Below, piece by piece: positions 1-64,000 of a stretch of 64,000 nt of DNA. The stretch is from Tridacna crocea (lineage: Eukaryota > Mollusca > Bivalvia > Cardiida > Cardiidae). Positions within the stretch are counted from its first letter, which is position 1; each line of letters begins with the position of its first letter. The position numbers and the translations under genes were made by a program. A model generated the notes under the pieces. It did no database searches and had not been told where the DNA came from. It saw only the letters and a program-made list of their open reading frames with translations. The stretch lies in assembly GCA_943736015.1 (NCBI GenBank), contig OX031057.1, forward strand, positions 38,650,501 through 38,714,500. Reading direction: 5' to 3'.

Positions 1-694
1 ACAGTTATAAGTAGTCATTGCAACATTCAACTGATGAATGTCTCGCCTAGCCATAGATGCTGAGATTGATAATACTTTGCATAGTCATTGCAAGCCTGGA
101 CTAACTTCTCATTGACCTAGTCATTGCAACAATGCATTGAGAAACTTTTTGTCATAGCATCTCTGGATTGATTTTTTTTCACTACTGATTACACGATAGA
201 TTTAGAAATTGATAAACTAGTCATTGAAACAATGGATTGACTCATTTCTATGCTTGTCATTGCATCAATAGTTATCCTAACCTGACCTAGTAATAATAGT
301 TATAGACTTATAAATTCTAAGTCTAGTGATTGTAATACTGAATTTAGCAATCTTTTACTTAGTCACTGCAAAATAGATGGACTGATTAAAAGTCATTATA
401 ACGGTTAACTGGCTTCTCTCAGAAGGTCATTGCAACACAGCATTTTTTGCTACACCTAATTGTTCCAACAATGGATTGAGAATTTGTTTGTCATTGCCAC
501 ACTGGATTATTTTTCTACTGTTAAATACAACAATGGATTTAGAAATTTATAACAAAGTCATTACAACAATTGATTGATTTATTTCTGTGCTTGTCATTGC
601 ATCAATAGATATTCTAACCTGACCGAGTAATATCAATTATAGAGTTATGAATTCCATCTCTATTGATTGAAATACTGATTTTACCAATTTCTTA
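1..694. repeat. Minisatellite block, right-hand end (cut by window start)
   Basis: AT-rich DNA built from 30-40 bp monomers that recur as GTCATTGCAACAATGGATTGA-like words separated by T-rich links. One higher-order repeat runs from 1 to about 428. A second, lacking its first hundred or so bases, follows and stops at ACCAATTTCTTA, where SINE-like element a begins. No gene. Confidence 0.93.
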
Positions 695-1183
695 AATGCA
701 CCTATCCATGCTTTATTGAAGTTTCTTCTACCAGTACTTTGCACTATGTCTGTTTCAAACCACTGTCTGCTTTCTCACATAAACAAGTCGAAACGCTGAT
801 TGGCAGTAAAGAAACGGGTATCCTGTCGCACTGAATATATGTCAAAGATCTTAAAGTGAAACAGCTTTAGCTAGGGAGTCAAAGTATCAATCCGAGTCTT
901 AAGTGCGGAATGTTGCTAACAGAGCCTGTGGATTTTTAGAGATAATGATAACAGAGAGAGAGTAAAGAGAGGCAGAGAGTGTGTGAGGGAGTGAGTTTGA
1001 GAAAGCTTTGATTTTGACATTTTTACTTTATAGTGGAAAGGTTGTATTGTGGATGAAAAAATAGTTTGTAAGGCTAATGACGGAAAAGGGAAATATCTAT
1101 ACCGTGATAGATTTGAATAGACACGTGTTGAAAATGTTAGAGGGAAAATATTATAACAGCCACACGCTTCTTTTCCACATAAC
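695..1183 (-). repeat. tRNA-derived SINE-like element, copy a (unit 1)
   Basis: About 490 bp that aligns with 1643-2155 over its length (shared words include CATGCTTTATTGAAGTTT, CCAGTACTTT, GATTGGCAGTAAAGAAA, TTTGATTTTGACA, TTCCACATAAC). Read on the minus strand, positions 930-840 resemble a decayed tRNA head: GGCTCTGTTAGCAACATTCC, then ACTCGGATTGAT, then TTTGACTCCC. Its B box is broken (expected GGTTCGANNCC). The part beyond the head in minus orientation is AT-rich and family-specific. The flank at about 940-1000 is GA-rich. The 89-residue minus frame at 916-1185 overlaps it and shows no recognisable domain. The SINE assignment is inferred from the better-preserved copy b. Confidence 0.55.
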
Positions 1184-1642
1184 AAATGTCAATGCACTGA
1201 ATATCTATAACTATAACTCTAACAAGTGTTACCTGCACTGAAGGAAGGATCCAGTTAGTCTTAAATTATCTTTGATGTTCATTGAACAACGGTAATTTGC
1301 TTTGTCGAGATCTTCACAACGCAAATTGTCTAGTCAGCTTGAGAATTATATTATTCTATTCAGTAATTTAGATGACTTGTTCTGGACAACCACACTTATT
1401 TGTTGACATAAAGCAATAATGGAATTTAAGAAAGTAGATAAATATCAGATATCCATATTGTTAGAATAGAGATGGTGATTTAAAGGGCTGGCTGTAAGGG
1501 GAGGTGGAGGCCAGGGAAAATTAATCAGACTGGTAAAATGTTGGTTGATAGGTAATGGTTGTAGTGTTGATACCGGATTTATTAGTAGAGATCGTTGTGT
1601 TTGTTTTCTTGGTGTTTTATGGCCTAATTGGTCAATACTGTC
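1184..1642. other. Anonymous spacer between SINE-like copies a and b
   Basis: About 460 bp with no recognised element. Contains a short (TATAAC)n run near 1204-1220 that has lost one unit in unit 3, and a purine-rich stretch near 1495-1515 (GTAAGGGGAGGTGGAGG). A 70-residue minus frame at 1445-1657 is proline-rich, has no familiar domain, and recurs in units 1-7 only as part of the repeat. Equivalent spacers lie at 10155-10613, 19131-19583, 28090-28548, 37057-37515, 46026-46484 and 54999-55457. Confidence 0.7.
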
Positions 1643-2155
1643 AATGCACCTACCCATGCTTTATTGAAGTTTATTTTTACCAGTACTTTACAGATTGTCT
1701 GTTTTAAACCACTGTTTGCTTTCCCTCATTAATAAATCAAAATGCCGATTGGCAGTAAAGAAAAATGTATCTTGTCGCAATGAACATATAAAAAGGTCTT
1801 GACGAAGAGCTTTGGAACAGCTTCTGATAGGGAGTCGAACCAGCAACCCGAGAGTTTTATGCCTGGAATGTTAAGGAGCCTCTTGATTTAAGGAGATACA
1901 TGTATGAAGACCGAGAGACTGTGACAGGCAGAGAGTATATTATGAGGGATTGGGTTTGAGAGAGCTTTTGATTTTGACACGTTTACCTTATAGTGAAAGG
2001 TTGTATTGTGGATAAAAAATAGTGAATTACTAAGGCCAATGACAGAAAAGCAAAATATCTATAAAGTGCTAAGGTTTAATATTCATGTTTTAAAAATGTT
2101 TAAATGGTAAATATCGGAACTGATATAAAAGAAACTCTGTTCTTTTTCACATAAC
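1643..2155 (-). repeat. tRNA-derived SINE-like element, copy b, with intact B box (unit 1)
   Basis: Best-preserved of the three copies. On the minus strand 1831-1841 reads GGTTCGACTCC, an exact match to the RNA polymerase III B box GGTTCGANNCC. It is preceded by CTCTCGGGTTGCT, which looks like the anticodon/variable arm of a tRNA. The region where an A box should lie (about 1862-1885, minus GAGGCTCCTTAACATTCC) is a poor match to TRGYNNANNNG, so transcription is doubtful. No clear poly(A) tail or target duplication was found. Alternative: a fragment of another tRNA-related element. Confidence 0.6.
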
Positions 2156-2392
2156 CATCGTTGAAACAAGGAACAGCAATGAGAGACCAGAATCGCAGTT
2201 AATTTCATCAAATATGGGAAAATAATCTTCCATGTTAGCACTGGCGATCCCCTCTCTCTCTAGACTTGTAGATAAGCGACTGAGCTAATAGATTAGTCTT
2301 TTACGATTGATTGATTGAGTGGTTAGTTGACTGTATGTGTTTAACAGCGTTTTCAACAATATTTGAGTTATATTAGGGCGGCCTGTACATAT
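2156..2392. other. Anonymous spacer between SINE-like copies b and c
   Basis: No gene or repeat family recognised. Near 2385-2396 units 1 and 2 read GTACATATAC, while units 3-7 read the perfect palindrome GTACATGTAC. A GATTGATTGATTG run near 2304 is interrupted (GATTTATTGATTG) in units 4-7. Confidence 0.6.
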
Positions 2393-2616
2393 ACCCATGT
2401 TTTCCTGGAGTTCAGTAACCAGTACTTCACACAATATTCTTCCCAAGCCACTAACTGTTTTTTCAACTCCACATAACTCTTGTCAGGTCCGCTTTTCAGA
2501 TGTTGGAGAAGAAGTAATCCTGTCGCAATGTGTATTATCAAATCCCAGAAAAGCATGGCTGAGCCGAGGATCTAAACCAGCTAACCCGTGTCTAAAGTTG
2601 TGTTCGCTACGGACCC
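2393..2616 (-). repeat. tRNA-derived SINE-like element, copy c, short (unit 1)
   Basis: Most diverged copy, about 224 bp, same orientation. Matches to a and b include ACCCATG, CCAGTACTT, CCTGTCGCAATG and a tRNA-like head on the minus strand (GGGTCCGTAGCGAACACAAC, then CACGGGTTAGCTGGTTTAGATCC, split here for length). Its B-box equivalent GGTTTAGATCC has one or two changes from GGTTCGANNCC. The long flank present in a and b beyond the head is missing. The 88-residue plus frame at 2397-2663 is a reading of this element and not a gene. Confidence 0.5.
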
Positions 2617-2810
2617 GATTGCTATTCAAATATCTGTCGAGTTTAACGTCAATAGAGTGTTGATTGGAAATGCTGTGATAGTTCTTACGATTAATAAAAG
2701 ATAGGGAACCGATTTCAATCGCAAAATACCTATGTCTTCAAAACGTTTGAAATACTTTCAGTCCAAGATAGTAGGTGTTTGGTCAGTGCCATAATTCATA
2801 TTTTCGTTTA
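2617..2810. other. Anonymous spacer after SINE-like copy c
   Basis: About 190 bp of mixed sequence with no recognised feature. It is almost invariant between units. Confidence 0.6.
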
Positions 2811-4040
2811 CCTAGCTGTCAGTAAGTACCATCAATCCGATGTACCCCTAGCCCCTGAGAGGAGTCAACAAACGCTTGAGATTTAGCCAAGTCCTTTTTC
2901 CTTCAGCTGATTGTCCTGAGCTCTCAGTCCATGACACCAGCCATTCCCCCCTGGTTAATAAACCACATGTTTTCCTCTCTACATAAGATGCTACCTTGAT
3001 TGGTCAAGTGTAAGTGGATGCCCAGATTCTGGAATTTACCTTAACTGAATGTCGTTAGCTCTTACCCTCAGTCTGTTCGATGAAGCTTAGCCCATGAGAT
3101 GTACCTCCTATCCGAGAAAGGTTTCTTCGTTTCTTTTGATTAATATGTATGCCTTTAAAATGGAACCCTTTCAGGCACTGAAACTGTATCTACATGAATG
3201 TGATCGACCGGCATTCCTGAGCATGTATTCCCAGTCCGTGCTGTCATATATCCGTAGTCTTTAACTCGCACTTCAAACCATCGCACCGAGTTCTTGAGAT
3301 TGTATCATCTGTTCGTGGAATGTTCCCTCAGTGTTTTTCATTTCCTCTTAGACTTGAAACTCGTGCCTATAGTCCATTTGATGTTCCCCAGGCACTACAC
3401 CACTGAACTGACTCGAATGCTTGCATTTGCCCTGTTTGCTGATAGCCTCGGCCCCTGAGAAACGTATCCTAAATCTGTGAGATGTACCCTTAGCGAGTAA
3501 CTGTGCCCTGAGACCCGACAACTGTATGGTAAGGCTGTACCACATGTCCGTCTGATGTACTCAAGGTTTGTAAGACGTGCACTTTGTCCATAGGTTATTC
3601 TCACATAACATGTCACGTATTGTAAGGTATTGAGATCCTTCTATAGTCATTGAGATGTATTCTCGGGCCATGAAACCGTGATTTTACTTCCAGCCTGTCA
3701 TCTTTCACCATAACTTGTGGGATGTTCCCATTTTCCTTTCTCCACACTCTTAGACTTTGACTTTGCAGAAACCCTAAAACTGTGTCTGTCCTTATGTCAA
3801 CCTTACGTCATGTGCCTCTATCCAAGATCAAAATTTTCTCCAAGTTCAAATGATGTAACCTCTCTATTTTACATCTGTGCCTAAACTTTGGATTTACCTT
3901 CAGCCGATTAGCTTGTGCATTAGGTCTGTGCAATCTTTCCCCAATTTGTGAACTGTTTCTGCAATCCTAGGGCTCTTGGCCTCAGTCTATGGAATTGAGA
4001 TATTAGTCGATGTGGGATGCCATTGAAACCCTTGTGCTAT
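2811..4040. repeat. Degenerate array of about 20 bp motifs (unit 1)
   Basis: The text keeps returning to a phrase of about 19-23 bp, roughly CCTnAGnCnnTGAGATGTAC. Clear instances are CCCATGAGATGTACC near 3092, ATCTGTGAGATGTACCC near 3473, CATTGAGATGTATTC near 3649, CCGATGTACCCC near 2838 and GTCTGATGTACTC near 3550. In between, many members are reduced to cCTgAG...TG fragments. It looks like an old minisatellite that has decayed by point mutation, unlike the fresher GTCATTGCAAC arrays. Small frames inside (3348-3545 and 3395-3616, minus) have no domain and are not called as genes. Confidence 0.55.
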
Positions 4041-4118
4041 TTCCTTACTGTCGTTTTCCAACGTTTAAAAGGTGCCCTTTCTATTCTTTGACAATAAGTT
4101 TAATCCCAAAACCGTTTG
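4041..4118. other. Short junction before polypyrimidine tract
   Basis: Mixed sequence, increasingly pyrimidine-rich. Nothing recognised. Confidence 0.5.
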
Positions 4119-4431
4119 TCCCCTCTCTCTTTTACTCTTATCGCTCTTGCTCTCTTCCTTACTTTGACATTGTATGTCGTTCTGGCTATCCCTCTTTCTG
4201 GGCTGTCTCTTTCTCTCTTCTCTTCCATCCTTCTATATCTCAGTCATTCTCTTACTCTTTCCTTTCGCTATCTCTCACTATCTCTATTTCTAATGTTTTC
4301 TTTTTCTCTGCCTGTTTCTCTATTTCTGTCTAACTCATTTCTTCTGTTCTCCAGACTCCATTTTTCTTTCAATCTCAATCCCTCCCTCCTTCCTCTCTAC
4401 ACCTGTCTCTCTACTTTTGCCTGTCTCTCTG

Positions 4432-4472
<41 letters not shown>

Positions 4473-4724
4473 CTGTCTGCATCTGCCTTTCTGTGGCTCA
4501 ATCTTCGTCTCTCTGCCTCTCTCTGGCTCTGTATCTCTGCCTATCTTATGCTCTATTTCAATTCCTCTTTTAGGCTCTATCTGTCAGACTCTCTTTTTCT
4601 CTATCCTGTTCTCTTTCTCTTTCGCTCTGTTCTCTTTCTCTTTCGCTCTCATTCTCTCTCTGTGTCTCTCACTCATTCTCTCTGTCTCTGTCTGTCTGTC
4701 TCTCTCTCTCTCCCTCACTCTCTC
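4119..4724 (+). repeat. Polypyrimidine tract with (CT)17 core (unit 1)
   Basis: About 600 bp in which the plus strand is almost all C and T, with interspersed TCTG and TTCG. The uninterrupted CT run is 4435-4468, 17 dinucleotides. It also contains a CTGT cluster near 4685-4700 and a doubled TTCTCTTTCTCTTTCGCTCTG near 4609-4650. Frames of about 160-208 residues across it are Ser/Leu strings with no domain. The tract could form triplex or other unusual DNA structures; that is an inference from composition. Confidence 0.9.
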
Positions 4725-4847
4725 ATTAACCACATATCATAGCTTACCTCTTCTTATAAGTTTTTTCAAGTTCACAGATCGCAGTTTTCTCCTTTACCCC
4801 ACAAACTGCATTCTCCATTTCAGATTTATCCTCCTTCAGTCCTTTTT
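4725..4847. other. Junction between polypyrimidine tract and minisatellite
   Basis: About 120 bp of C/T-biased mixed sequence without a recognised feature. The first minisatellite-like word appears near 4850. Confidence 0.5.
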
Positions 4848-5215
4848 ACCCTCTGCCTCTTGCAACACTTGGTATACTAAATTCTTACAAAATTGTTTCT
4901 ACACTTGATCTACTTAACTGTGAGAGTATCATTGAGACACTTGATTTCTCATCTTAAACTTCGTTCGGATCACTGGATTTTCTTTATCACCTGGGAAATG
5001 TAACAACGTAGTGATAATTAATTTATTAGGTCTTCGGAACAGTGAATTGACTTTTTTTCTCGCCGGGTAATTTGAACACTGTATTAATAATATTCTTACC
5101 AAGTCATTGCAACCAGGAACCAACCTTTTATGTAATCATTGCAACAATGGATTGAGAAGTCATTGTAACAGTGAATTAATTCATCTGTCACAGAGTCATT
5201 GCAACAATGGACTAT
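4848..5215. repeat. Extra block of extended higher-order repeat, copy 1
   Basis: Starts near CCTCTTGCAACACTTGG and runs through ATACTAAATTCTTACAAAA, TTCGGATCACTGGATTTT and GTGATAATTAATTTAT. It aligns along its whole length with 6491-6860, which has ATACTAAATTCTTATAAAA, TTCGGATCAATGGATC and GTGATAATTAATTTAT. It is an older internal duplication, present in every unit, and marks where the minisatellite resumes after the polypyrimidine tract. Confidence 0.8.
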
Positions 5216-5945
5216 TTCTTTTGTCATTACTACACTGGACTGATTATTTTTCTGCTAGTAATTACAACAATGGGTTTAGAAATTTATAACCTAGTCATTG
5301 CAACATTGGATTGACTTATTTCTGTCCTTATCATTGCATCAATAGTTATCCTAACCTGACCAAGTAATATCAGTTATTGACTTATAAATTCCATATGTAG
5401 TGATTGTAATAGTGAATTTACCAAACTCTTACTTAGCTCCTGAAAGACTGGATTACTTGTTAAAAGTCATTATATGAGTGAATTGACATCGCTCTGAAGG
5501 TCATTGCAAGACTATTTTTTGCTTTGTTAGTTGTTGCAAATTTTGGACAGTTATAACTAGTTGTTCTAACATTCAACCGATGAATGTCTTGCCTAGCCAT
5601 TAGTACTGAGATTGACCAATCTTTGCATAATCATTGTAACCTTAAACTGACTTCTCTTTAACCTAGTCATTGTAACAATGGACTGAGAAACTTTTTAATT
5701 TGTCATTGCTACACTGGATTGATTTTTTTTCTACTAGTAATGACTGTAATGGATTTAGAAATTGATAACCTAGTCATTGCAACAATGGATTGACTTATTT
5801 CTGTGCTTGTCATTGAATCGGTAGATATCCTTACTTGACTAAGTTATATCAATAACAAACTTTTAAATTCCATGTCTAGTGATTGTAATACTGAGTTTAC
5901 CAATCTCTTCATTAGTCACTGCAAAACCAGATTGACACTGGTTAA

Positions 5946-6166
5946 CCCATTACTACACAATCCCTACTTTTGAGGCCCCTGAGAAAGAAGGGTTTCGAAA
6001 ACATTGTGGGAAAAAGAGAAAATGCTGGTAACCAGCATTTCCTCCTTTTCCCACAACGTTTTCTATCCTTCACAAAACAAATTTCAAATTTTCAGTCACT
6101 TTTATTGTGTCATCTGCAAATGTTTTTGATTTGGACAAACCTAAAATTTTGTCATTTGGTAATGAG
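5946..6166. mobile_element. piggyBac-like MITE inserted at TTAA (unit 1)
   Basis: A 221 bp non-coding element inside the higher-order repeat 5547-6253. It is flanked by TTAA at 5942-5945 and ATAA at 6167-6170 (one substitution). It begins CCCATTAC and ends GTAATGAG, giving 8 bp terminal inverted repeats with one mismatch. The same place in the next higher-order repeat (about 7110-7130) reads GATTGACTTGTTAAAATCAT without the insert, so the empty site is preserved. Removing element plus one TTAA brings the 707 bp repeat to 482, near the 460 bp norm. TTAA duplication with CCC-starting ends is characteristic of piggyBac-superfamily elements. No transposase is present, so it must have moved in trans. 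The 66-residue frame across it is not a gene. Confidence 0.75.
5997..6063 (-). repeat. Hairpin inside the MITE (unit 1)
   Basis: Inverted repeat with 33 bp arms around a single central base (6030). The centre is AATGCTGGT-A-ACCAGCATT. Only three arm positions mismatch: 6003/6057, 6015/6045 and 6019/6041, all A opposite C on the plus strand. In an RNA copied as the minus-strand sequence the same pairs are G-U, so that RNA would be fully paired. In units 3-7 base 5996 is A rather than C, which extends pairing to 5995/6065. Confidence 0.85.
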
Positions 6167-6490
6167 ATAAAATCATTGTAACAGTGAATTGACTTCTCTC
6201 AGAAGGTCATTGCAACAGTGTATGTTTTGCTTTGTTAGTCATTGCAATCCTGGACAGTTATAGTCATTGTAATATTCACCTGATGAATGTCTCGCCTAGC
6301 CATTGGTACTGAGATTGACAAATCTTTTGCATAGTCATTGCAACCCTGACCCGACTTCTCTTTCACTTAGTCATTGCAAGAATTGCTTGAGATTTTTTTT
6401 TTATCATAAATGGATATATTGATGTCACCTTGTCATTGCTACAATGGATTGATAATTCTATGACTTTGTCATTGGAACAATTGATTGACT

Positions 6491-6860
6491 ATCCTCTCGC
6501 CTAGACTTTGTAACACTGGATTATACTAAATTCTTATAAAATTGCTTCGACAGTTGATCTAAACTGTGATAGTGATTCAGACACTGGATTTCTCATCTTA
6601 ATCTTGGAGTTCGGATCAATGGATCTTTTCTATCACCTTGGTAAATGTAACAATGGAGTGATAATTAATTTATAAAGATTTTGCAACAGTGAATTGACCT
6701 TTTTTTCTCACCAGATAATTGGAACACTGCATTAATAATATTCTTACCAAGTCCATGCAACCCTGAACTAACAGTTTACGTATGCATTGCAACAATGGTT
6801 TGAAAAATCATTGTAACTTAAACAGTGAATTATTTTATCTGTAACAAAGTCATTGTAACA
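6491..6860. repeat. Extra block of extended higher-order repeat, copy 2
   Basis: Paralogue of 4848-5215. It explains why the higher-order repeat at 6254-7207 is 954 bp rather than about 460. Monomer-like words (AACACTGGATT, AACAGTGAATTGACC) show that it is itself a diverged part of the minisatellite, not a foreign insertion. Confidence 0.8.
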
Positions 6861-9665
6861 ATGGATTAATTTTGTTTTATTTGTCACTGCTACACTGCAT
6901 TGATTCTCTTTCTACTTGTAATTACAACAATGGATTTAAAAATTTATAACCAAGTCAATGCTAAAATGGATTGACTCATTTCTGTTCTTGTCATTGCATC
7001 AATAGATATCCTATCCTGATCAAGTAATATCACTTCTAGATATATCAATTCCATACCTAGTGATTGTAACAATGAATTTACCAATCTCTTACTCAGTCAC
7101 TGCAAAACTAGATTGACTTGTTAAAATCATTGCAATAGTGAAGTAACTTGTCTCAGAAGGTCATTGCAACTCTGCATTTTTTGCTTTGTTAGTCATTGCA
7201 GTCCTGGAGAGTTATAATTGGTCATTGCAACATTCAACTGATGAATGTTGCTTCTAGTCATTGGCACTGAGATTGACAAATCTTTGTGTAGTCATTGCAA
7301 GCCTGGACTGACTTCTCTTTTACCTAGTCATTGCAACAATGGATTGAGAAACACTTTATCATTGCTGCGCTGGATTGATTATTTTTCTACCAGTGATTAC
7401 AAAAAATGGACTTAGAAATCTATAACCTAGTCATTGCAACAATTGATTGTCATTGCATCAATAGATATCCTAACCTGACCAAGTAATACCAGTTTTAGAC
7501 TTATAAAGTCCATATCTAGTGATTGTAAGACTGAATTTACCAATCTGTTACTCAGCCGGTGAAAAACTGGATTATTCGTTAAGTCATCATAACAGTGAAT
7601 TGACTTCTCTCTGATGGTCATTGCAACACTGTATTTTTGCTTTGTTCATCATTGCAATTCTGGACAGTGATAACTAGTCATTGCAACATTGAACTGGTGA
7701 ATGTTTCGCCTAGCCTTTGGTAATTCGATTTACAAATCTTTGCATAGTAGTTGCAACCCTATACCGACTTCTCTCTCACCTAGTCATTGCAACAATAGAA
7801 TGAGAAACTTTTGTATTTGCCATTGCAACACTGGATTGATTATTTCCTACTATTAATTACAACAATGGATTTAGTAATTTATAACCTAGTGATGCAACAA
7901 TTGAATGACTTATTTCTGTGCTTGTTATTGGATCAATAGATATCCTTATCTGAACAGGTAATACAAGTTCTAGACTTGTAAATTCCAAATCTAGTGATAG
8001 TAATACTGAATTTATCGATCTCTAAGTCACTGCAAAACTATATTGACTTGTTAAAATCATTGTAACAGTAAACTGACTAATCTCAGGTCATTGAAACACT
8101 ATTTTTTTGCTCTGTTAGTCATTGCAATCTTGGACAGTTGTAACTAGTGATTGCAACATTCAACTGATAAATGTCTCGCCTAGCCATTGGTACTGAGATT
8201 GACAAATCTTTGCATTGTCATTTCAGCCCTGGACCGACTTCTCTTTCACCTAGTCATTGCAACAATGGATTAACTTATTTCTGTTCTTGCCATTACATCA
8301 ATAGATATCCTAACTTGACCAAGTAATGTCACTAATCTATAGACATATAAATTCCATATCTAGTGATTGTAAGACTGAATTTACCAATCTCTTATTTAGT
8401 CACTGAAAAACTGGATAACTCATTAAAACCATTGTAACAGTGAACTGACTGCTTTCAGAAGGTCATTGCAATACTGTACTTTTTGCTTTATTTCTCATTG
8501 CAATCCTGGACTGTTATAACTAGTCATTGCAACACTGAAGTGATGAATGTCTCGTGGTACTGAGACTGAGAAATTTTTGTGTGGTAATTGCAACCCTAGA
8601 CTGACTTCTCTTTGATGTAGTCATTGCAACAAAGGATTGAGAAACTTTATAATTTGTCATTGATACGATCATTGTTCTACTAGTAATTACAATAATGGGT
8701 TTAGAAATTTATAACACAGTAATTGCAACAGTGGATTGACTTATTTCTGTGCTTGTCATTGTATCAATAGATATCTTAACCTGACCAAGTGATATCAGTT
8801 ATAGACTTATAAATTCAATATCTAGTATTTGTAATACTGAAATCAACATCTCTTACTCAGCCGTAGAACACCTTGATTACTCGTTAAATGTCTATATAAC
8901 AGTGAATTGACTTCTTTCAGAAGGTCATTGCAACACTGTATGTTTTGCTTTGTTAGTCATTGCAATCCTGGACAGTTATAAGTAGTCATTGCAACATTCA
9001 ACTGATGAATGTCTCGCCTAGCCATAGATGCTGAGATTGATAATACTTTGCATAGTCATTGCAAGCCTGGACTAACTTCTCATTGACCTAGTCATTGCAA
9101 CAATGCATTGAGAAACTTTTTGTCATAGCATCTCTGGATTGATTTTTTTTCACTACTGATTACACGATAGATTTAGAAATTGATAAACTAGTCATTGAAA
9201 CAATGGATTGACTCATTTCTATGCTTGTCATTGCATCAATAGTTATCCTAACCTGACCTAGTAATAATAGTTATAGACTTATAAATTCTAAGTCTAGTGA
9301 TTGTAATACTGAATTTAGCAATCTTTTACTTAGTCACTGCAAAATAGATGGACTGATTAAAAGTCATTATAACGGTTAACTGGCTTCTCTCAGAAGGTCA
9401 TTGCAACACAGCATTTTTTGCTACACCTAATTGTTCCAACAATGGATTGAGAATTTGTTTGTCATTGCCACACTGGATTATTTTTCTACTATTAAATACA
9501 ACAATGGATTTAGAAATTTATAACAAAGTCATTACAACAATTGATTGATTTATTTCTGTGCTTGTCATTGCATCAATAGATATTCTAACCTGACCGAGTA
9601 ATATCAATTATAGAGTTATGAATTCCATCTCTATTGATTGAAATACTGATTTTACCAATTTCTTA

Positions 9666-10154
9666 AATGCACCTATCCATGCTTTATTGAAGTTTCTTCT
9701 ACCAGTACTTTGCACTATGTCTGTTTCAAACCACTGTCTGCTTTCCCACATAAACAAGTCGAAACGCTGATTGGCAGTAAAGAAACGGGTATCCTGTCGC
9801 ACTGAATATATGTCAAAGATCTTAAAGTGAAACAGCTTTAGCTAGGGAGTCAAAGTATCAATCCGAGTCTTAAGTGCGGAATGTTGCTAACAGAGCCTGT
9901 GGATTTTTAGAGATAATGATAACAGAGAGACAGTAAAGAGAGGCAGAGAGTGTGTGAGGGAGTGAGTTTGAGAAAGCTTTGATTTTGACATTTTTACTTT
10001 ATAGTGGAAAGGTTGTATTGTGGATGAAAAAATAGTTTGTAAGGCTAATGACGGAAAAGGGAAATATCTATACCGTGATAGATTTGAATAGACACGTGTT
10101 GAAAATGTTAGAGGGAAAATATTATAACAGCCACACGCTTCTTTTCCACATAAC
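9666..10154 (-). repeat. SINE-like element copy a (unit 2)
   Basis: Counterpart of 695-1183. Has CTTTCCCACATAAAC near 9744, which removes a stop in one minus frame (9608-9802), and GAGACAGTAAAG near 9927. Both are shared with units 6 and 8. Confidence 0.55.
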
Positions 10155-10613
10155 AAATGTCAATGCACTGAATATCTATAACTATAACTCTAACAAGTGT
10201 TACCTGCACTGAAGGAAGGATCCAGTTAGTCTTAAATTATCTTTGATGTTCATTGAACAACGGTAATTTGCTTTGTCGAGATCTTCACAACGCAAATTGT
10301 CTAGTCAGCTTGAGAATTATATTATTCTATTCAGTAATTTAGATGACTTGTTCTGGACAACCACACTTATTTGTTGACATAAAGCAATAATGGAATTTAA
10401 GAAAGTAGATAAATATCAGATATCCATATTGTTAGAATAGAGATGGTGATTTAAAGGGCTGGCTGTAAGGGGAGGTGGAGGCCAGGGAAAATTAATCAGA
10501 CTGGTAAAATGTTGGTTGATAGGTAATGGTTGTAGTGTTGATACCGGATTTATTAGTAGAGATCGTTGTGTTTGTTTTCTTGGTGTTTTATGGCCTAATT
10601 GGTCAATACTGTC

Positions 10614-11126
10614 AATGCACCTACCCATGCTTTATTGAAGTTTATTTTTACCAGTACTTTACAGATTGTCTGTTTTAAACCACTGTTTGCTTTCCCTCAT
10701 TAATAAATCAAAATGCCGATTGGCAGTAAAGAAAAATGTATCTTGTCGCAATGAACATATAAAAAGGTCTTGACGAAGAGCTTTGGAACAGCTTCTGATA
10801 GGGAGTCGAACCAGCAACCCGAGAGTTTTATGCCTGGAATGTTAAGGAGCCTCTTGATTTAAGGAGATACATGTATGAAGACCGAGAGACTGTGACAGGC
10901 AGAGAGTATATTATGAGGGATTGGGTTTGAGAGAGCTTTTGATTTTGACACGTTTACCTTATAGTGAAAGGTTGTATTGTGGATAAAAAATAGTGAATTA
11001 CTAAGGCCAATGACAGAAAAGCAAAATATCTATAAAGTGCTAAGGTTTAATATTCATGTTTTAAAAATGTTTAAATGGTAAATATCGGAACTGATATAAA
11101 AGAAACTCTGTTCTTTTTCACATAAC
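10614..11126 (-). repeat. SINE-like element copy b, B box at 10802-10812 (unit 2)
   Basis: B-box match GGTTCGACTCC on the minus strand is intact. Reads GTGCTAAGG near 11037 as in units 1 and 3. Confidence 0.6.
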
Positions 11127-11363
11127 CATCGTTGAAACAAGGAACAGCAATGAGAGACCAGAATCGCAGTTAATTTCATCAAATATGGGAAAATAATCTT
11201 CCATGTTAGCACTGGCGATCCCCTCTCTCTCTAGACTTGTAGATAAGCGACTGAGCTAATAGATTAGTCTTTTACGATTGATTGATTGAGTGGTTAGTTG
11301 ACTGTATGTGTTTAACAGCGTTTTCAACAATATTTGAGTTATATTAGGGCGGCCTGTACATAT

Positions 11364-11587
11364 ACCCATGTTTTCCTGGAGTTCAGTAACCAGTACTTCA
11401 CACAATATTCTTCCCAAGCCACTAACTGTTTTTTCAACTCCACATAACTCTTGTCAGGTCCGCTTTTCAGATGTTGGAGAAGAAGTAATCCTGTCGCAAT
11501 GTGTATTATCAAATCCCAGAAAAGCATGGCTGAGCCGAGGATCTAAACCAGCTAACCCGTGTCTAAAGTTGTGTTCGCTACGGACCC
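11364..11587 (-). repeat. SINE-like element copy c (unit 2)
   Basis: Same as unit 1 copy c, including CCAGTACTTC and TCAGGTCCGC. Confidence 0.5.
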
Positions 11588-11781
11588 GATTGCTATTCAA
11601 ATATCTGTCGAGTTTAACGTCAATAGAGTGTTGATTGGAAATGCTGTGATAGTTCTTACGATTAATAAAAGATAGGGAACCGATTTCAATCGCAAAATAC
11701 CTATGTCTTCAAAACGTTTGAAATACTTTCAGTCCAAGATAGTAGGTGTTTGGTCAGTGCCATAATTCATATTTTCGTTTA

Positions 11782-13011: not shown

Positions 13012-13089
13012 TTCCTTACTGTCGTTTTCCAACGTTTAAAAGGTGCCCTTTCTATTCTTTGACAATAAGTTTAATCCCAAAACCGTTTG

Positions 13090-13402: not shown

Positions 13403-13444
<42 letters not shown>

Positions 13445-13699: not shown

Positions 13700-13822
13700 A
13701 TTAACCACATATCATAGCTTACCTCTTCTTATAAGTTTTTTCAAGTTCACAGATCGCAGTTTTCTCCTTTACCCCACAAACTGCATTCTCCATTTCAGAT
13801 TTATCCTCCTTCAGTCCTTTTT

Positions 13823-22372: not shown

Positions 22373-22407
<35 letters not shown>

Positions 22408-49275: not shown

Positions 49276-49316
<41 letters not shown>

Positions 49317-52600: not shown

Positions 52601-54509
52601 CCCTATACCGACTTCTCTCTCACCTAGTCATTGCAACAATAGAAAGAGAAACTTTTGTATTTGCCATTGCAACACTGGATTGATTATTTCCTACTATTAA
52701 TTACAACAATGGATTTAGTAATTTATAACCTAGTGATGCAACAATTGAATGACTTATTTCTGTGCTTGTTATTGGATCAATAGATATCCTTATCTGACCA
52801 GGTAATACAAGTTCTAGACTTGTAAATTCCAAATCTAGTGATAGTAATACTGAATTTATCGATCTCTAAGTCACTGCAAAACTATATTGACTTGTTAAAA
52901 TCATTGTAACAGTAAACTGACTAATCTCAGGTCATTGAAACACTATTTTTTTGCTCTGTTAGTCATTGCAATCTTGGACAGTTGTAACTAGTGATTGCAA
53001 CATTCAACTGATAAATGTCTCGCCTAGCCATTGGTACTGAGATTGACAAATCTTTGCATTGTCATTTCAGCCCTGGACCGACTTCTCTTTCACCTAGTCA
53101 TTGCAACAATGGATTAACTTATTTCTGTTCTTGCCATTGCATCAATAGATATCCTAACTTGACCAAGTAATGTCACTTATCTATAGACATATAAATTCCA
53201 TATCTAGTGATTGTAAGACTGAATTTACCAATCTCTTATTTAGTCACTGAAAAACTGGATAACTCATTAAAACCATTGTAACAGTGAACTGACTGCTTTC
53301 AGAAGGTCATTGCAATACTGTACTTTTTGCTTTATTTCTCATTGCAATCCTGGACTGTTATAACTAGTCATTGCAACACTGAAGTGATGAATGTCTCGTG
53401 GTACTGAGACTGAGAAATTTTTGTGTGGTAATTGCAACCCTAGACTGACTTCTCTTTGATGTAGTCATTGCAACAAAGGATTGAGAAACTTTATAATTTG
53501 TCATTGATACGATCATTGTTCTACTAGTAATTACAATAATGGGTTTAGAAATTTATAACACAGTAATTGCAACAGTGGATTGACTTATTTCTGTGCTTGT
53601 CATTGTATCAATAGATATCTTAACCTGACCAAGTGATATCAGTTATAGACTTATAAATTCAATATCTAGTATTTGTAATACTGAAATCAACATCTCTTAC
53701 TCAGCCGTAGAACACCTTGATTACTCGTTAAATGTCTATATAACAGTGAATTGACTTCTTTCAGAAGGTCATTGCAACACTGTATGTTTTGCTTTGTTAG
53801 TCATTGCAATCCTGGACAGTTATAAGTAGTCATTGCAACATTCAACTGATGAATGTCTCGCCTAGCCATAGATGCTGAGATTGATAATACTTTGCATAGT
53901 CATTGCAAGCCTGGACTAACTTCTCATTGACCTAGTCATTGCAACAATGCATTGAGAAACTTTTTGTCATAGCATCTCTGGATTGATTTTTTTTCACTAC
54001 TGATTACACGATAGATTTAGAAATTGATAAACTAGTCATTGAAACAATGGATTGACTCATTTCTATGCTTGTCATTGCATCAATAGTTATCCTAACCTGA
54101 CCTAGTAATAATAGTTATAGACTTATAAATTCTAAGTCTAGTGATTGTAATACTGAATTTAGCAATCTTTTACTTAGTCACTGCAAAATAGATGGACTGA
54201 TTAAAAGTCATTATAACGGTTAACTGGCTTCTCTCAGAAGGTCATTGCAACACAGCATTTTTTGCTACACCTAATTGTTCCAACAATGGATTGAGAATTT
54301 GTTTGTCATTGCCACACTGGATTATTTTTCTACTGTTAAATACAACAATGGATTTAGAAATTTATAACAAAGTCATTACAACAATTGATTGATTTATTTC
54401 TGTGCTTGTCATTGCATCAATAGATATTCTAACCTGACCGAGTAATATCAATTATAGAGTTATGAATTCCATCTCTATTGATTGAAATACTGATTTTACC
54501 AATTTCTTA
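49692..54509. repeat. Main minisatellite block (units 6/7)
   Basis: Has AATAGAAAGAG near 52640 (AATAGAATGAG elsewhere) and CAATACTGTAC near 53313, the latter shared only with unit 1. No gene. Confidence 0.92.
50790..51010. mobile_element. piggyBac-like MITE (unit 6)
   Basis: Hairpin core 50841-50907 with the extended base. Confidence 0.75.
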
Positions 54510-54998
54510 AATGCACCTATCCATGCTTTATTGAAGTTTCTTCTACCAGTACTTTGCACTATGTCTGTTTCAAACCACTGTCTGCTTTCTCACATAAACA
54601 AGTCGAAACGCTGATTGGCAGTAAAGAAACGGGTATCCTGTCGCACTGAATATATGTCAAAGATCTTAAAGTGAAACAGCTTTAGCTAGGGAGTCAAAGT
54701 ATCAATCCGAGTCTTAAGTGCGGAATGTTGCTAACAGAGCCTGTGGATTTTTAGAGATAATGATAACAGAGAGAGAGTAAAGAGAGGCAGAGAGTGTGTG
54801 AGGGAGTGAGTTTGAGAAAGCTTTGATTTTGACATTTTTACTTTATAGTGGAAAGGTTGTATTGTGGATGAAAAAATAGTTTGTAAGGCTAATGACGGAA
54901 AAGGGAAATATCTATACCGTGATAGATTTGAATAGACACGTGTTGAAAATGTTAGAGGGAAAATATTATAACAGCCACACGCTTCTTTTCCACATAAC
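54510..54998 (-). repeat. SINE-like element copy a (unit 7)
   Basis: GAGAGAGTAAAG and CTTTCTCACATAAAC, as in units 1, 4 and 5. Confidence 0.55.
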
Positions 54999-55457
54999 AA
55001 ATGTCAATGCACTGAATATCTATAACTATAACTCTAACAAGTGTTACCTGCACTGAAGGAAGGATCCAGTTAGTCTTAAATTATCTTTGATGTTCATTGA
55101 ACAACGGTAATTTGCTTTGTCGAGATCTTCACAACGCAAATTGTCTAGTCAGCTTGAGAATTATATTATTCTATTCAGTAATTTAGATGACTTGTTCTGG
55201 ACAACCACACTTATTTGTTGACATAAAGCAATAATGGAATTTAAGAAAGTAGATAAATATCAGATATCCATATTGTTAGAATAGAGATGGTGATTTAAAG
55301 GGCTGGCTGTAAGGGGAGGTGGAGGCCAGGGAAAATTAATCAGACTGGTAAAATGTTGGTTGATAGGTAATGGTTGTAGTGTTGATACCGGATTTATTAG
55401 TAGAGATCGTTGTGTTTGTTTTCTTGGTGTTTTATGGCCTAATTGGTCAATACTGTC

Positions 55458-55970
55458 AATGCACCTACCCATGCTTTATTGAAGTTTATTTTTACCAGTA
55501 CTTTACAGATTGTCTGTTTTAAACCACTGTTTGCTTTCCCTCATTAATAAATCAAAATGCCGATTGGCAGTAAAGAAAAATGTATCTTGTCGCAATGAAC
55601 ATATAAAAAGGTCTTGACGAAGAGCTTTGGAACAGCTTCTGATAGGGAGTCGAACCAGCAACCCGAGAGTTTTATGCCTGGAATGTTAAGGAGCCTCTTG
55701 ATTTAAGGAGATACATGTATGAAGACCGAGAGACTGTGACAGGCAGAGAGTATATTATGAGGGATTGGGTTTGAGAGAGCTTTTGATTTTGACACGTTTA
55801 CCTTATAGTGAAAGGTTGTATTGTGGATAAAAAATAGTGAATTACTAAGGCCAATGACAGAAAAGCAAAATATCTATAAAGTGCTAGGGTTTAATATTCA
55901 TGTTTTAAAAATGTTTAAATGGTAAATATCGGAACTGATATAAAAGAAACTCTGTTCTTTTTCACATAAC
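55458..55970 (-). repeat. SINE-like element copy b, B box at 55646-55656 (unit 7)
   Basis: B box intact. Confidence 0.6.
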
Positions 55971-56207
55971 CATCGTTGAAACAAGGAACAGCAATGAGAG
56001 ACCAGAATCGCAGTTAATTTCATCAAATATGGGAAAATAATCTTCCATGTTAGCACTGGCGATCCCCTCTCTCTCTAGACTTGTAGATAAGCGACTGAGC
56101 TAATAGATTAGTCTTTTACGATTTATTGATTGAGTGGTTAGTTGACTGTATGTGTTTAACAGCGTTTTCAACAATATTTGAGTTATATTAGGGCGGCCTG
56201 TACATGT

Positions 56208-56431
56208 ACCCATGTTTTCCTGGAGTTCAGTAACCATTACTTCACACAATATTCTTCCCAAGCCACTAACTGTTTTTTCAACTCCACATAACTCTTGTCA
56301 GATCCGCTTTTCAGATGTTGGAGAAGAAGTAATCCTGTCGCAATGTGTATTATCAAATCCCAGAAAAGCATGGCTGAGCCGAGGATCTAAACCAGCTAAC
56401 CCGTGTCTAAAGTTGTGTTCGCTACGGACCC
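56208..56431 (-). repeat. SINE-like element copy c (unit 7)
   Basis: Same as unit 6. Confidence 0.5.
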
Positions 56432-56625
56432 GATTGCTATTCAAATATCTGTCGAGTTTAACGTCAATAGAGTGTTGATTGGAAATGCTGTGATAGTTCT
56501 TACGATTAATAAAAGATAGGGAACCGATTTCAATCGCAAAATACCTATGTCTTCAAAACGTTTGAAATACTTTCAGTCCAAGATAGTAGGTGTTTGGTCA
56601 GTGCCATAATTCATATTTTCGTTTA

Positions 56626-57857
56626 CCTAGCTGTCAGTAAGTACCATCAATCCGATGTACCCCTAGCCCCTGAGAGGAGTCAACAAACGCTTGAGATTTA
56701 GCCAAGTCCTTTTTCCTTCAGCTGATTGTCCTGAGCTCTCAGTCCATGACACCAGCCATTCCCCCCTGGTTAATAAACCACATGTTTTCCTCTCTACATA
56801 AGATGCTACCTTGATTGGTCAAGTGTAAGTGGATGCCCAGATTCTGGAATTTACCTTAACTGAATGTCGTTAGCTCTTACCCTCAGTCTGTTCGATGAAG
56901 CTTAGCCTATGAGATGTACCTCCTATCCGAGAAAGGTTTCTTCGTTTCTTTTGATTAATATGTATGCCTTTAAAATGGAACCCTTTCAGGCACTGAAACT
57001 GTATCTACATGAATGTGATCGACCGGCATTCCTGAGCATGTATTCCCAGTCCGTGCTGTCATATATCCGTAGTCTTTAACTCGCACTTCAAACCATCGCA
57101 CCGAGTTCTTGAGATTGTATCATCTGTTTGTGGAATGTTCCCTCAGTGTTTTTCATTTCCTCTTAGATTTGAAACTCGTGCCTATAGTCCATTTGATGTT
57201 CCCCAGGCACTACACCACTGAACTGACTCGAATGTTTGCATTTGCCCTGTTTGCTGATAGCCTCAGCCCCTGAGAAACGTATCCTAAATCTGTGAGATGT
57301 ACCCTTAGCGAGTAACTGTGCCCTGAGACCCGACAACTGTATGGTAAGGCTGTACCACATGTCCGTCTGATGTACTCAAGGTTTGTAAGACGTGCACTTT
57401 GTCCATAGGTTATTCTCACATAACATGTCACGTATTGTAAGGTATTGAGATCCTTCTATAGTCATTGAGATGTATTCTCGGGCCATGAAACCGTGATTTT
57501 ACTTCGAGCCTGTCATCTTTCACCATAACTTGTGGGATGTTCCCATTTTCCTTTCTCCACACTCTTAGACTTTGACTTTGCAGAAACCCTAAAACTGTGT
57601 CTCTGTCCTTATGTCAACCTTACGTCATGTGCCTCTATCCAAGATCAAAATTTTCTCCAAGTTCAAATGATGTAACCTCTCTATTTTACATCTGTGCCTA
57701 AACTTTGGATTTACCTTCAGCCGATTAGCTTGTGCATTAGGTCTGTGCAATCTTTCCCCAATTTGTGAACTGTTTCTGCAATCCTAGGGCTCTTGGCCTC
57801 GGTCTATGGAATTGAGATATTAGTCGATGTGGGATGCCATTGAAACCCTTGTGCTAT
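56626..57857. repeat. Degenerate array of about 20 bp motifs (unit 7)
   Basis: Units 4-7 type with several private transitions (CTGTTTGTGG near 57124, TAGATTTGAAAC near 57165, GAATGTTTGC near 57230, CTCGGTCTATGG near 57798). Confidence 0.55.
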
Positions 57858-57935
57858 TTCCTTACTGTCGTTTTCCAACGTTTAAAAGGTGCCCTTTCTA
57901 TTCTTTGACAATAAGTTTAATCCCAAAACCGTTTG

Positions 57936-58249
57936 TCCCCTCTCTCTTTTACTCTTATCGCTCTTGCTCTCTTCCTTACTTTGACATTGTATGTCGTTCT
58001 GGCTATCCCTCTTTCTGGGCTGTCTCTTTCTCTCTTCTCTTCCATCCTTCTATATCTCAGTCATTCTCTTACTCTTTCCTTTCGCTATCTCTCACTATCT
58101 CTATTTCTAATGTTTTCTTTTTCTCTGCCTGTTTCTCTATTTCTGTCTAACTCATTTCTTCTGTTCTCCAGACTCCATTTTTCTTTCAATCTCAATCCCT
58201 CCCTCCCTCCTTCTCTACACCTGTCTCTCTACTTTTGCCTGTCTCTCTG

Positions 58250-58286
<37 letters not shown>

Positions 58287-58542
58287 CTGTCTGCATCTGC
58301 CTCTCTGTGGCTCAATCTTCGTCTCTCTGCCTCTCTCTGGCTCTGTATCTCTGCCTATCTTATGCTCTATTTCAATTCCTCTTTTAGGCTCTATCTGTCA
58401 GACTCTCTTTTTCTCTATCCTGTTCTCTTTCTCTTTCGGTCTGTTCTCTTTCTCTTTCGCTCTCATTCTCTCTCTGTGTCTCTCACTCATTCTCTCTGTC
58501 TCTGTCTGTCTGTCTGTCTCTCTCTCTCTCCCTCACTCTCTC
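57936..58542 (+). repeat. Polypyrimidine tract with (CT)15 core (unit 7)
   Basis: Uninterrupted CT at 58253-58282. The CCTCCCTCCCTCC run near 58198, CGGTCTG near 58437 and one added TCTG near 58510 are private to this unit. Confidence 0.9.
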
Positions 58543-58665
58543 ATTAACCACATATCATAGCTTACCTCTTCTTATAAGTTTTTTCAAGTTCACAGATCGC
58601 AGTTTTCTCCTTTACCCCACAAACTGCATTCTCCATTTCAGATTTATCCTCCTTCAGTCCTTTTT

Positions 58666-61600
58666 ACCCTCTGCCTCTTGCAACACTTGGTATACTAAAT
58701 TCTTACAAAATTGTTTCTACACTTGATCTACTTAACTGTGAGAGTATCATTGAGACACTTGATTTCTCATCTTAAACTTCGTTCGGATCACTGGATTTTC
58801 TTTATCACCTGGGAAATGTAACAACGTAGTGATAATTAATTTATTAGGTCTTCGGAACAGTGAATTGACTTTTTTTCTCGCCGGGTAATTTGAACACTGT
58901 ATTAATAATATTCTTACCAAGTCATTGCAACCAGGAACCAACCTTTTATGTAATCATTGCAACAATGGATTGAGAAGTCATTGTAACAGTGAATTAATTC
59001 ATCTGTCACAGAGTCATTGCAACAATGGACTATTTCTTTTGTCATTACTACACTGGACTGATTATTTTTCTGCTAGTAATTACAACAATGGGTTTAGAAA
59101 TTTATAACCTAGTCATTGCAACATTGGATTGACTTATTTCTGTCCTTATCATTGCATCAATAGTTATCCTAACCTGACCAAGTAATATCAGTTATTGACT
59201 TATAAATTCCATATGTAGTGATTGTAATAGTGAATTTACCAAACTCTTACTTAGCTCCTGAAAGACTGGATTACTTGTTAAAAGTCATTATATGAGTGAA
59301 TTGACATCGCTCTGAAGGTCATTGCAAGACTATTTTTTGCTTTGTTAGTTGTTGCAAATTTTGGACAGTTATAACTAGTTGTTCTAACATTCAACCGATG
59401 AATGTCTTGCCTAGCCATTAGTACTGAGATTGACCAATCTTTGCATAATCATTGTAACCTTAAACTGACTTCTCTTTAACCTAGTCATTGTAACAATGGA
59501 CTGAGAAACTTTTTAATTTGTCATTGCTACACTGGATTGATTTTTTTTCTACTAGTAATGACTGTAATGGATTTAGAAATTGATAACCTAGTCATTGCAA
59601 CAATGGATTGACTTATTTCTGTGCTTGTCATTGAATCGGTAGATATCCTTACTTGACTAAGTTATATCAGTAACAGACTTTTAAATTCCATGTCTAGTGA
59701 TTGTAATACTGAGTTGACCAATCTCTTCATTAGTCACTGCAAAACCAGATTGACACTGGTTAACCCATTACTGCACAATCCCTACTTTTGAGGCCCCTGA
59801 GAAAGAAGGGTTTAGAAAACATTGTGGGGAAAAAGAGAAAATGCTGGTAACCAGCATTTCCTCCTTTTCCCACAACGTTTTCTATCCTTCACAAAACAAA
59901 TTTCAAATTTTCAGTCACTTTTATTGTGTCATCTGCAAATGTTTTTGATTTGGACAAACCTAAAATTTTGTCATTTGGTAATGAGATAAAATCATTGTAA
60001 CAGTGAATTGACTTCTCTCAGAAGGTCATTGCAACAGTGTATGCTTTGCTTTGTTAGTCATTGCAATCCTGGACAGTTATAGTCATTGTAATATTCACCT
60101 GATGAATGTCTCGCCCAGCCATTGGTACTGAGATTGACAAATCTTTTGCATAGTCATTGCAACCCTGACCCGACTTCTCTTTCACTTAGTCATTGCAAGA
60201 ATTGCTTGAGATTTTTTTTTATCATAAATGGATATATTGATGTCACCTTGTCATTGCTACAATGGATTGATAATTCTATGACTTTGTCATTGGAACAATT
60301 GATTGACTATCCTCTCGCCTAGACTTTGTAACACTGGATTATACTAAATTCTTATAAAATTGCTTCGACAGTTGATCTAAACTGTGATAGTGATTCAGAC
60401 ACTGGATTTCTCATCTTAATCTTGGAGTTCGGATCAATGGATCTTTTCTATCACCTTGGTAAATGTAACAATGGAGTGATAATTAATTTATAAAGATTTT
60501 GCAACAGTGAATTGACCTTTTTTTCTCACCAGATAATTGGAACACTGCATTAATAATATTCTTACCAAGTCCATGCAACCCTGAACTAACAGTTTACGTA
60601 TGCATTGCAACAATGGTTTGAAAAATCATTGTAACTTAAACAGTGAATTATTTTATCTGTAACAAAGTCATTGCAACAATGGATTAATTTTGTTTTATTT
60701 GTCACTGCTACACTGCATTGATTCTCTTTCTACTTGTAATTACAACAATGGATTTAAAAATTTATAACCAAGTCAATGCTAAAATGGATTGACTCATTTC
60801 TGTTCTTGTCATTGCATCAATAGATATCCTATCCTGATCAAGTAATATCACTTCTAGATATATCGATTCCATACCTAGTGATTGTAACAATGAATTTACC
60901 AATCTCTTACTCAGTCACTGCAAAACTAGATTGACTTGTTAAAATCATTGCAATAGTGAAGTAACTTGTCTCAGAAGGTCATTGCAACTCTGCATTTTTT
61001 GCTGTGTTAGTCATTGCAGTCCTGGAGAGTTATAATTGGTCACTGCAACATTCAACTGATGAATGTTGCTTCTAGTCATTGGCACTGAGATTGACAAATC
61101 TTTGTGTAGTCATTGCAAGCCTGGACTGACTTCTCTTTTACCTAGTCATTGCAACAATGGATTGAGAAACACTTTATCATTGCTGCGCTGGATTGATTAT
61201 TTTTCTACCAGTGATTACAAAAAATGGACTTAGAAATCTATAACCTAGTCATTGCAACAATTGATTGTCATTGCATCAATAGATATCCTAACCTGACCAA
61301 GTAATACCAGTTTTAGACTTATAAAGTCCATATCTAGTGATTGTAAGACTGAATTTACCAATCTGTTACTCAGCCGGTGAAAAACTGGATTATTCGTTAA
61401 GTCATCATAACAGTGAATTGACTTCTCTCTGATGGTCATTGCAACACTGTATTTTTGCTTTGTTCATCATTGCAATTCTGGACAGTCATAACTAGTCATT
61501 GCAACATTGAACTGGTGAATGTTTCGCCTAGCCATTGGTAATTCGATTTACAAATCTTTGCATAGTAGTTGCAACCCTATACCGACTTCTCTCTCACCTA

Positions 61601-63484
61601 GTCATTGCAACAATAGAATGAGAAACTTTTGTATTTGCCATTGCAACACTGGATTGATTATTTCCTACTATTAATTACAACAATGGATTTAGTAATTTAT
61701 AACCTAGTCATTGCAACAATTGAATGACTTATTTCTGTGCTTGTTATTGGATCAATAGATATCCTTATCTGACCAGGTAATACAAGTTCTAGACTTGTAA
61801 ATTCCAAATCTAGTGATAGTAATACTGAATTTATCGATCTCTAAGTCACTGCAAAACTAGATTGACTTGTTAAAATCATTGTAACAGTAAACTGACAAAT
61901 CTCAGGTCATTGAAACACTGTTTTTTTAGCTTTGTTAGTCATTGCAATCTTGGACAGTTGTAACTAGTGATTGCAACATTCAACTGATAAATGTCTCGCC
62001 TAGCCATTGGTACTGAGATTGACAAATCTTTGCATTGTCATTTCAGCCCTGGACCGACTTCTCTTTCACCTAGTCATTGCAACAATGGATTAACTTATTT
62101 CTGTTCTTGCCATTGCATCAATAGATATCCTATCTTGACCAAGTAATGTCACTTATCTATAGACATATAAATTCCATATCTAGTGATTGTAAGACTGAAT
62201 TTACCAATCTCTTATTTAGTCACTGAAAAACTGGATAACTCATTAAAACCATTGTAACAGTGAACTGACTGCTTTCAGAAGGTCATTGCAACACTGTACT
62301 TTTTGCTTTATTTCTCATTGCAATCCTGGACTGTTATAACTAGTCATTGCAACACTGAAGTGATGAATGTCGCGTGGTACTGAGACTGAGAAATTTTTGT
62401 GTGGTAATTGCAACCCTAGACTGACTTCTCTTTCATCTAGTCATTGCAACAATGGATTGAGAAACTTTATAATTTGTCATTGATACGATCATTGTTCTAC
62501 TAGTAATTACAATAATGGATTTAGAAATTTATAACACAGTAATTGCAACAGTGGATTGACTTATTTCTGTGCTTGTCATTGTATCAATAGATATCCTAAC
62601 CTGACCAAGTGATATCAGTTATAGACTTATAAATTCAATATCTAGTATTTGTAATACTGAAATCAACATCTCTTACTCAGCCGTAGAACACCTTGATTAC
62701 TCGTTAAATGTCTATATAACAGTGAATTGACTTCTTTCAGAAGGTCATTGCAACACTGTATGTTTTGCTTTGTTAGTCATTGCAATCCTGGACAGTTATA
62801 AGTAGTCATTGCAACATTCAACTGATGAATGTCTCGCCTAGCCATAGATGCTGAGATTGATAATACTTTGCATAGTCATTGCAAGCCTGGACTAACTTCT
62901 CATTGACCTAGTCATTGCAACAATGCATTGAGAAACTTTTTGTCATAGCATCTCTGGATTGATATTTTTTTCACTACTGATTACACGATAGATTTAGAAA
63001 TTGATAAACTAGTCATTGAAACAATGGATTGACTTATTTCTATGCTTGTCATTGCATCAATAGTTATCCTAACCTGACCTAGTAATAATAGTTATAGACT
63101 TATAAATTCTAAGTCTAGTGATTGTAATACTGAATTTAGCAATCTTTTACTTAGTCACTGCAAAATAGATGGACTGATTAAAAGTCATTATAACGGTTAA
63201 CTGGCTTCTCTCAGAAGGTCATTGCAACAGCATTTTTTGCTACACCTAATTGTTCCAACAATGGATTGAGAATTTGTTTGTCATTGCCACACTGGATTAT
63301 TTTTCTACTATTAAATACAACAATGGATTTAGAAATTTATAACAAAGTCATTACAACAATTGATTGATTTATTTCTGTGCTTGTCATTGCATCAATAGAT
63401 ATTCTAACCTGACCGAGTAATATCAATTATAGAGTTATGAATTCCATCTCTATTGATTGAAATACTGATTTTACCAATTTCTTA
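58666..63484. repeat. Main minisatellite block (units 7/8), partly ancestral-looking
   Basis: The left part matches the other blocks. From about 61500 to 62620 several sites differ from all other units and agree with the general monomer consensus: CCTAGTCATTGCAAC near 61705, GCCTAGCCATTGG near 61527 and ATAATGGATTTAG near 62511. The 66-residue plus frame at 60122-60322 is open only because of a local T-run length difference and is not a gene. Confidence 0.92.
59764..59985. mobile_element. piggyBac-like MITE (unit 7), 222 bp
   Basis: One extra G in the left hairpin arm near 59828 creates a bulge and breaks the 66-residue frame seen over this element in units 1-6. The hairpin spans 59815-59882. 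Confidence 0.75.
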
Positions 63485-64000
63485 AATGCACCTATCCATG
63501 CTTTATTGAAGTTTCTTCTACCAGTACTTTGCACTATGTCTGTTTCAAACCACTGTCTGCTTTCCCACATAAACAAGTCGAAACGCTGATTGGCAGTAAA
63601 GAAACGGGTATTCTGTCGCACTGAATATATGTCAAAGATCTTAAAGTGAAACAGCTTTAGCTAGGGAGTCAAAGTATCAATCCGAGTCTTAAGTGCGGAA
63701 TGTTGCTAACAGAGCCTGTGGATTTTTAGAGATAATGATAACAGAGAGACAGTAAAGAGAGGCAGAGAGTGTGTGAGGGAGTGAGTTTGAGAAAGCTTTG
63801 ATTTTGACATTTTTACTTTATAGAGGAAAGGTTGTATTGTGGATGAAAAAATAGTTTGTAAGGCTAATGACGGAAAAGGGAAATATCTATACCGTGATAG
63901 ATTTGAATAGACACGTGTTGAAAATGTTGAGGGAAAATATTATAACAGCCACACGCTTCTTTTCCACATAACAAATGTCAATGCACTGAATATCTATAAC
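62792..64000. repeat. Macrosatellite unit 8, truncated by window end
   Basis: This is the first 1209 bp of another unit, up to just past SINE-like element a. It shows a 2 bp loss near 63228 (CAACAGCATT for CAACACAGCATT) and a 1 bp loss near 63928 (ATGTTGAGGG). It shares CTTTCCCACATAAAC and GAGACAGTAAAG with units 2 and 6. The array clearly continues past 64000. Confidence 0.95.
63485..63972 (-). repeat. SINE-like element copy a (unit 8)
   Basis: One-base loss near 63928, TATAGAGGAAAGG near 63822 (TATAGTGGAAAGG elsewhere) and GGGTATTCTGTCGC near 63606. The window ends shortly after. Confidence 0.55.

Follow-up and report, generated by a model that had tools for sequence, protein, structure and literature searches.

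A head-to-tail array of composite 9-kb units on a Tridacna crocea contig

We found that a 64-kb stretch of Tridacna crocea DNA (hereafter the window) consists of head-to-tail copies of a composite 9-kb unit and lies inside an array of ~232 kb on contig C2. The array is very probably a single-site, non-coding macro- or megasatellite, in which a core was joined to an older satellite, amplified head to tail and homogenised by unequal exchange. Its units diverge in a graded manner along the array, and clusters of related cores lie elsewhere in the genome.

When we re-phased the window, we recovered exactly the seven full units of 8959–8976 bp and one partial copy that the first-pass annotation had described from the letters alone; the partial copy measures 1209 bp. 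The period is ~8.97 kb: 80% of 24-mers recurred at a distance of 8900–9010 bp, and none did so in one mononucleotide shuffle of the window. The annotation had also noted the lack of any unique flank, which is true within the window, and both flanks of the array are visible on the chromosome. The layered inner repeats that it reported are real, and consist of a ~36-bp motif and ~465-bp blocks within the 9-kb unit. The units of the window are as follows.

1 to 8971, plus strand: unit 1, 8971 bp, with the phase set at window base 1
8972 to 17947, plus strand: unit 2, 8976 bp
17948 to 26906, plus strand: unit 3, 8959 bp
26907 to 35873, plus strand: unit 4, 8967 bp
35874 to 44841, plus strand: unit 5, 8968 bp
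44842 to 53815, plus strand: unit 6, 8974 bp
53816 to 62791, plus strand: unit 7, 8976 bp
62792 to 64000, plus strand: partial unit 8, 1209 bp

Each unit is a composite of a 4.2-kb core and a 4.8-kb satellite, with repeats nested at three levels. The parts of unit 1 are as follows.

695 to 4860, plus strand: core module, with SINE-like, minisatellite-like and polypyrimidine parts
695 to 2735, minus strand: three tRNA-derived SINE-like copies (near 695, 1640 and 2370) and their spacers
1448 to 1559, no strand: best conserved stretch of the core, with invariant runs in four paralogous cores
2736 to 4060, plus strand: part of the core that, by eye, resembles a decayed minisatellite
4061 to 4860, plus strand: polypyrimidine (TC-rich) tract, in which the longest uninterrupted stretch of pyrimidines (37 bp) is at 4432
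4861 to 9660, plus strand: satellite module, with the ~36-bp motif TAGTCATTGCAACAATGGATTGA... and ~465-bp blocks, extending into unit 2 up to the next core
5940 to 6172, no strand: foldback MITE of ~234 bp within the satellite module

Like the megasatellites that include mobile-element pieces, the unit has sequences of dispersed elements, since both its MITE and its SINE-like sequences also occur in the flanks of the array. Comparison of the core with itself matched the SINE-like stretches 695–1183 and 1643–2155 at 74%. The third copy, near 2370, was missed by this comparison; it aligns with the other copies and matches the same two diverged SINE-like copies in the left flank, one of which has A-box- and B-box-like letters by eye. 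The minus strand has an exact B box (GGTTCGACTCC) at 1841, and no other site in the unit comes within two mismatches of it. Matches to the foldback MITE are so numerous in the left flank (five of 229–238 bp in 17.7 kb, L009 and L010, C2:38500001-38517700, together with many shorter ones) that this element is frequent in the region. The right flank has two matches of 229–240 bp in 4.3 kb.

The window occupies C2:38650501-38714500, on a contig of 76.48 Mb in a genome of 1.05 Gb and 31 contigs. Matches of at least 92% to the array run from about 38.5238 to 38.7557 Mb. Counting from anchor to anchor, we found 24 full units, followed at the right end by a truncated one, and a 1.5-kb core query (window part 2600–4100, searched genome-wide) gave 25 full-length matches in the array. 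The units stand head to tail at 8947–8976 bp, with one of 12236 bp, within the range of hundreds of base pairs to several kilobases that is typical of macro- and megasatellites. The long one, U6 (C2:38578424-38590659), carries a ~3.25-kb foldback element inserted in its satellite module, with inverted ends of ~850 bp that are 93% alike. At the left edge, a decayed form of the satellite begins near 38.5177 Mb, and the leftmost array copy is broken by deletions and a ~2.6-kb insertion. At the right end, unit position 5940 of the last copy is followed directly by 2811, and the copy stops at 3375. Beyond it, the ~4.3 kb of right flank that we examined differs from the array satellite. This flank (L029:6248-9449, about 38.756–38.759 Mb on C2) also contains short exon-like open frames, and one of seven tried gave a weak Pfam match (PML_C, 18.3 bits, below the cut-off of 27.1).

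To compare the units, we aligned 23 of the 24 full ones, leaving out the last. Pairwise divergence among these 23 ranged from 0.01 to 0.84%, the high unit-to-unit identity expected of macro- and megasatellites. We counted the 8964 of 12253 alignment columns that held letters in at least 18 units, the others being mostly the single insertion. Variable columns numbered 188, and at 78 of them the rarer letter was present in at least two units, largely as blocks of neighbours. The variable fraction was 1.7% in the SINE-like part, 2.0% in the satellite, 2.4% in the minisatellite-like part and 3.5% in the polypyrimidine tract. Averaged over all pairs, divergence was 0.36%; adjacent units differed by a mean of 0.18% and those 22 positions apart by 0.80%, and none of 10000 random unit orders reached the observed likeness of neighbours. 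The units at the left end and the four right-most aligned units are the most distant from the remainder. Those four are mutually close (0.01–0.11%), so the right end forms a separate block and not part of a smooth slope. Unequal exchange among near neighbours is well established for tandem repeats. That neighbours are most alike and end units most distant fits such exchange and argues against an assembly copying error. The macrosatellite and homogenisation reading of the first-pass annotation thus gains support from the graded divergence of the aligned units.

Related cores are present outside the array. The core query gave at least 11 near-full-length matches at 88–91%, along with shorter pieces, all on the minus strand, in three clusters: 15.885–15.954 Mb and 20.69–20.77 Mb on C2, and 2.87–2.917 Mb on C5 (of 67.1 Mb). 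These are the best 40 of 608 candidates scored and so represent a lower bound; among them, matches were confined to C2 and C5. A satellite query, by comparison, found the array site alone among the matches listed (best 28 of 5430 candidates). Three of four 10-kb outside stretches (L030, L031 and L032) have core copies but no satellite other than 67 bp matching the MITE in L032, as judged on same-strand matches at an E value of 1e-10. BLAST matched stretches of L030 and L031 to about 695–4858 at 86–88%. The fourth stretch, L033, has both modules, as a core with rearranged satellite. Two cores in the 20.7-Mb cluster are 94.5% alike, which makes that cluster less uniform than the 38.6-Mb array. 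We also observed that in a sister cluster (L031:4457-6771) the conserved-element stretch occurs thrice in a row, with two copies of equal BLAST identity to the window.

These observations suggest how the array may have formed. The 4.2-kb core, present in clusters elsewhere, would have become linked with an older satellite of short motifs; the resulting 9-kb unit would then have multiplied head to tail at 38.6 Mb, and unequal exchange between adjacent copies would have kept the units alike. The simplest order would run from a core cluster, through a core-plus-satellite form such as that in L033, to growth at 38.6 Mb. We infer both this order and the engine, which would be unequal crossing over or conversion.

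We searched the unit for genes and functional sites. Rfam gave no match at the gathering score in two units (18.5 kb), and a permissive search, run on one unit, yielded 10 weak matches that fell short of their gathering scores; six of these lay at or close to the foldback MITE. ARAGORN found no tRNA or tmRNA in 64 kb. We therefore rejected an array of ribosomal or other RNA genes (rDNA, 5S or U snRNA). No Pfam match was found for the 10 ORFs tried of the 29 with at least 60 amino acids in window positions 1–10000. No segment open in all four paralogous cores exceeded 61 codons, a length reached in the TC tract, and there was no clear coding pattern in this test of the core. A few of the 25 core segments printed had a mild third-position excess (at most 8/13 or 7/11 changes), which we read as chance, about as expected from so many tests. 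A protein-gene array is not supported by these 10 of 29 ORFs and the core coding pattern. No match to a vertebrate-style CTCF consensus (CCASYAGRKGGCRS, up to two mismatches) was present in 64 kb; the shuffle expectation of 2.87 refers to those 64 kb, of which only ~9 kb is different sequence. By this vertebrate-style consensus, the unit lacks the CTCF site per unit of a DXZ4-like insulator. A CENP-B box (up to one mismatch) had no match either, so this feature of centromeric satellites is lacking as well, although the box is missing from many centromeres. One exact 23-mer found no relative among IMG/VR contigs. We regard the unit as non-coding, in that we found no gene within it, and infer that it has no selected function.

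The one sign of constraint that we saw in the unit is the stretch 1448–1559, which we keep as a lead. It contains invariant runs of 64 bp and 36 bp among the four paralogous cores. The 64-bp run is the longest in the core and exceeds the 99.9th percentile of shuffles (41), which suggests that part of the 9-kb unit may be under constraint; a run of 36 bp is also seen at 3094–3129. Each unit might carry, at or near this stretch, a putative promoter or a gene for a transcribed non-coding RNA, in which case the array would be a cluster of RNA genes that works like the DXZ4 or RNU2 arrays. Beyond the invariant run, this is favoured by the window positions 1475–1530, which match each of two deeper paralogues at 93%, more than any other 56-bp step in those two comparisons, and by a TACAG on the minus strand that follows a run of pyrimidines and, by eye, resembles a splice acceptor. 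However, other steps reach 91% in the same pair of comparisons, and when the two deeper paralogues are compared with each other this step is 91% identical, whereas others reach up to 95%. Folds at 1440–1570 were no better than shuffles (z of 0.64 and −0.94), and we rejected a structured RNA there on that ground; the absence of Rfam matches at the gathering score also weighs against an RNA gene. We consider such a gene cluster unlikely. It is very unlikely that the 112-bp stretch of each core marks a putative promoter or spliced non-coding RNA, in ~25 copies kept by selection and related to sequences of the core clusters elsewhere, as one of a family of regulatory macrosatellites.

Two further explanations concern the array as a whole. 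It lies at ~50% of the length of C2 (38.52–38.76 of 76.48 Mb), as a centromere or pericentromeric block of this one chromosome might. However, it spans only ~232 kb, cores related to its own occur at two more places on C2 and at 2.9 of 67.1 Mb on C5, the matches listed (a lower bound) including no further contig, and the CENP-B-like consensus is absent; the right flank, too, departs from the array satellite over ~4.3 kb. A centromeric or pericentromeric role on C2 is very unlikely. The first-pass annotation had listed a centromeric role among several; as a genome-wide role it is not supported by the core query, which matched C2 and C5 only (best 40 of 608 candidates). The copy number could instead be largely an artefact of assembly, and some neighbours are indeed only about one base apart (U22 and U23, 0.01%), so the real copy number may differ at such places. 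Even so, variants are shared by blocks of neighbours, unit lengths differ, one unit has its own insertion, the edges are decayed, and the 250 kb counted across the array surroundings contain no N. An assembler that duplicated a single unit would hardly produce graded divergence. The annotation had named one or two units, copied by the assembler, as the finding that would overturn its reading; the graded divergence, the shared variants, the U6 insertion and the decayed edge copies all oppose it, and an artefact of this kind is extremely improbable.

The homogenised single-site macro- or megasatellite that we favour has the tested features of its kind and adds no new mechanism; the array is large but ordinary, and it leaves existing knowledge of satellites unchanged. 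It is assembled from edge to edge, and one can read in it the order of the units, the variants they share and the decay at both ends; the related clusters display the core both with and without satellite. These properties make it reasonably well suited to testing models of unequal exchange. A partial literature search, covering titles and the starts of abstracts, found no array of similar kind, which is not proof that none has been reported.

Among systems described in other species, satellite-like repeats in the Pacific oyster are carried by non-autonomous Helentrons (PMC7492417). The array resembles them in linking short satellite repeats with mobile-element sequence, whereas the oyster arrays are short and dispersed. 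Human macrosatellites have units of 3.0–6.6 kb at one or two sites, according to a table in Schaap et al. 2013 (PMC3599962), and some, such as DXZ4, have no protein product. Our array shares with DXZ4 and other human macrosatellites a multi-kilobase unit; it differs in that the unit is larger, with no encoded product found and no CTCF-like consensus. The closest known kind is the human megasatellites with mobile-element pieces. As described in Warburton et al. 2008 (PMC2588610), these have multi-kilobase head-to-tail units of mobile-element pieces, one with short-satellite blocks; 12-kb units occur among the arrays, one family is spread over 11 chromosomes in more than 25 arrays, and the authors presume unequal crossing over. 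The array described here likewise has multi-kilobase units, head to tail, with mobile-element pieces. It differs from the human megasatellites in sequence and host, and in that about half of its 9-kb unit is a diverged 36-bp satellite, with repeats at three nested levels.
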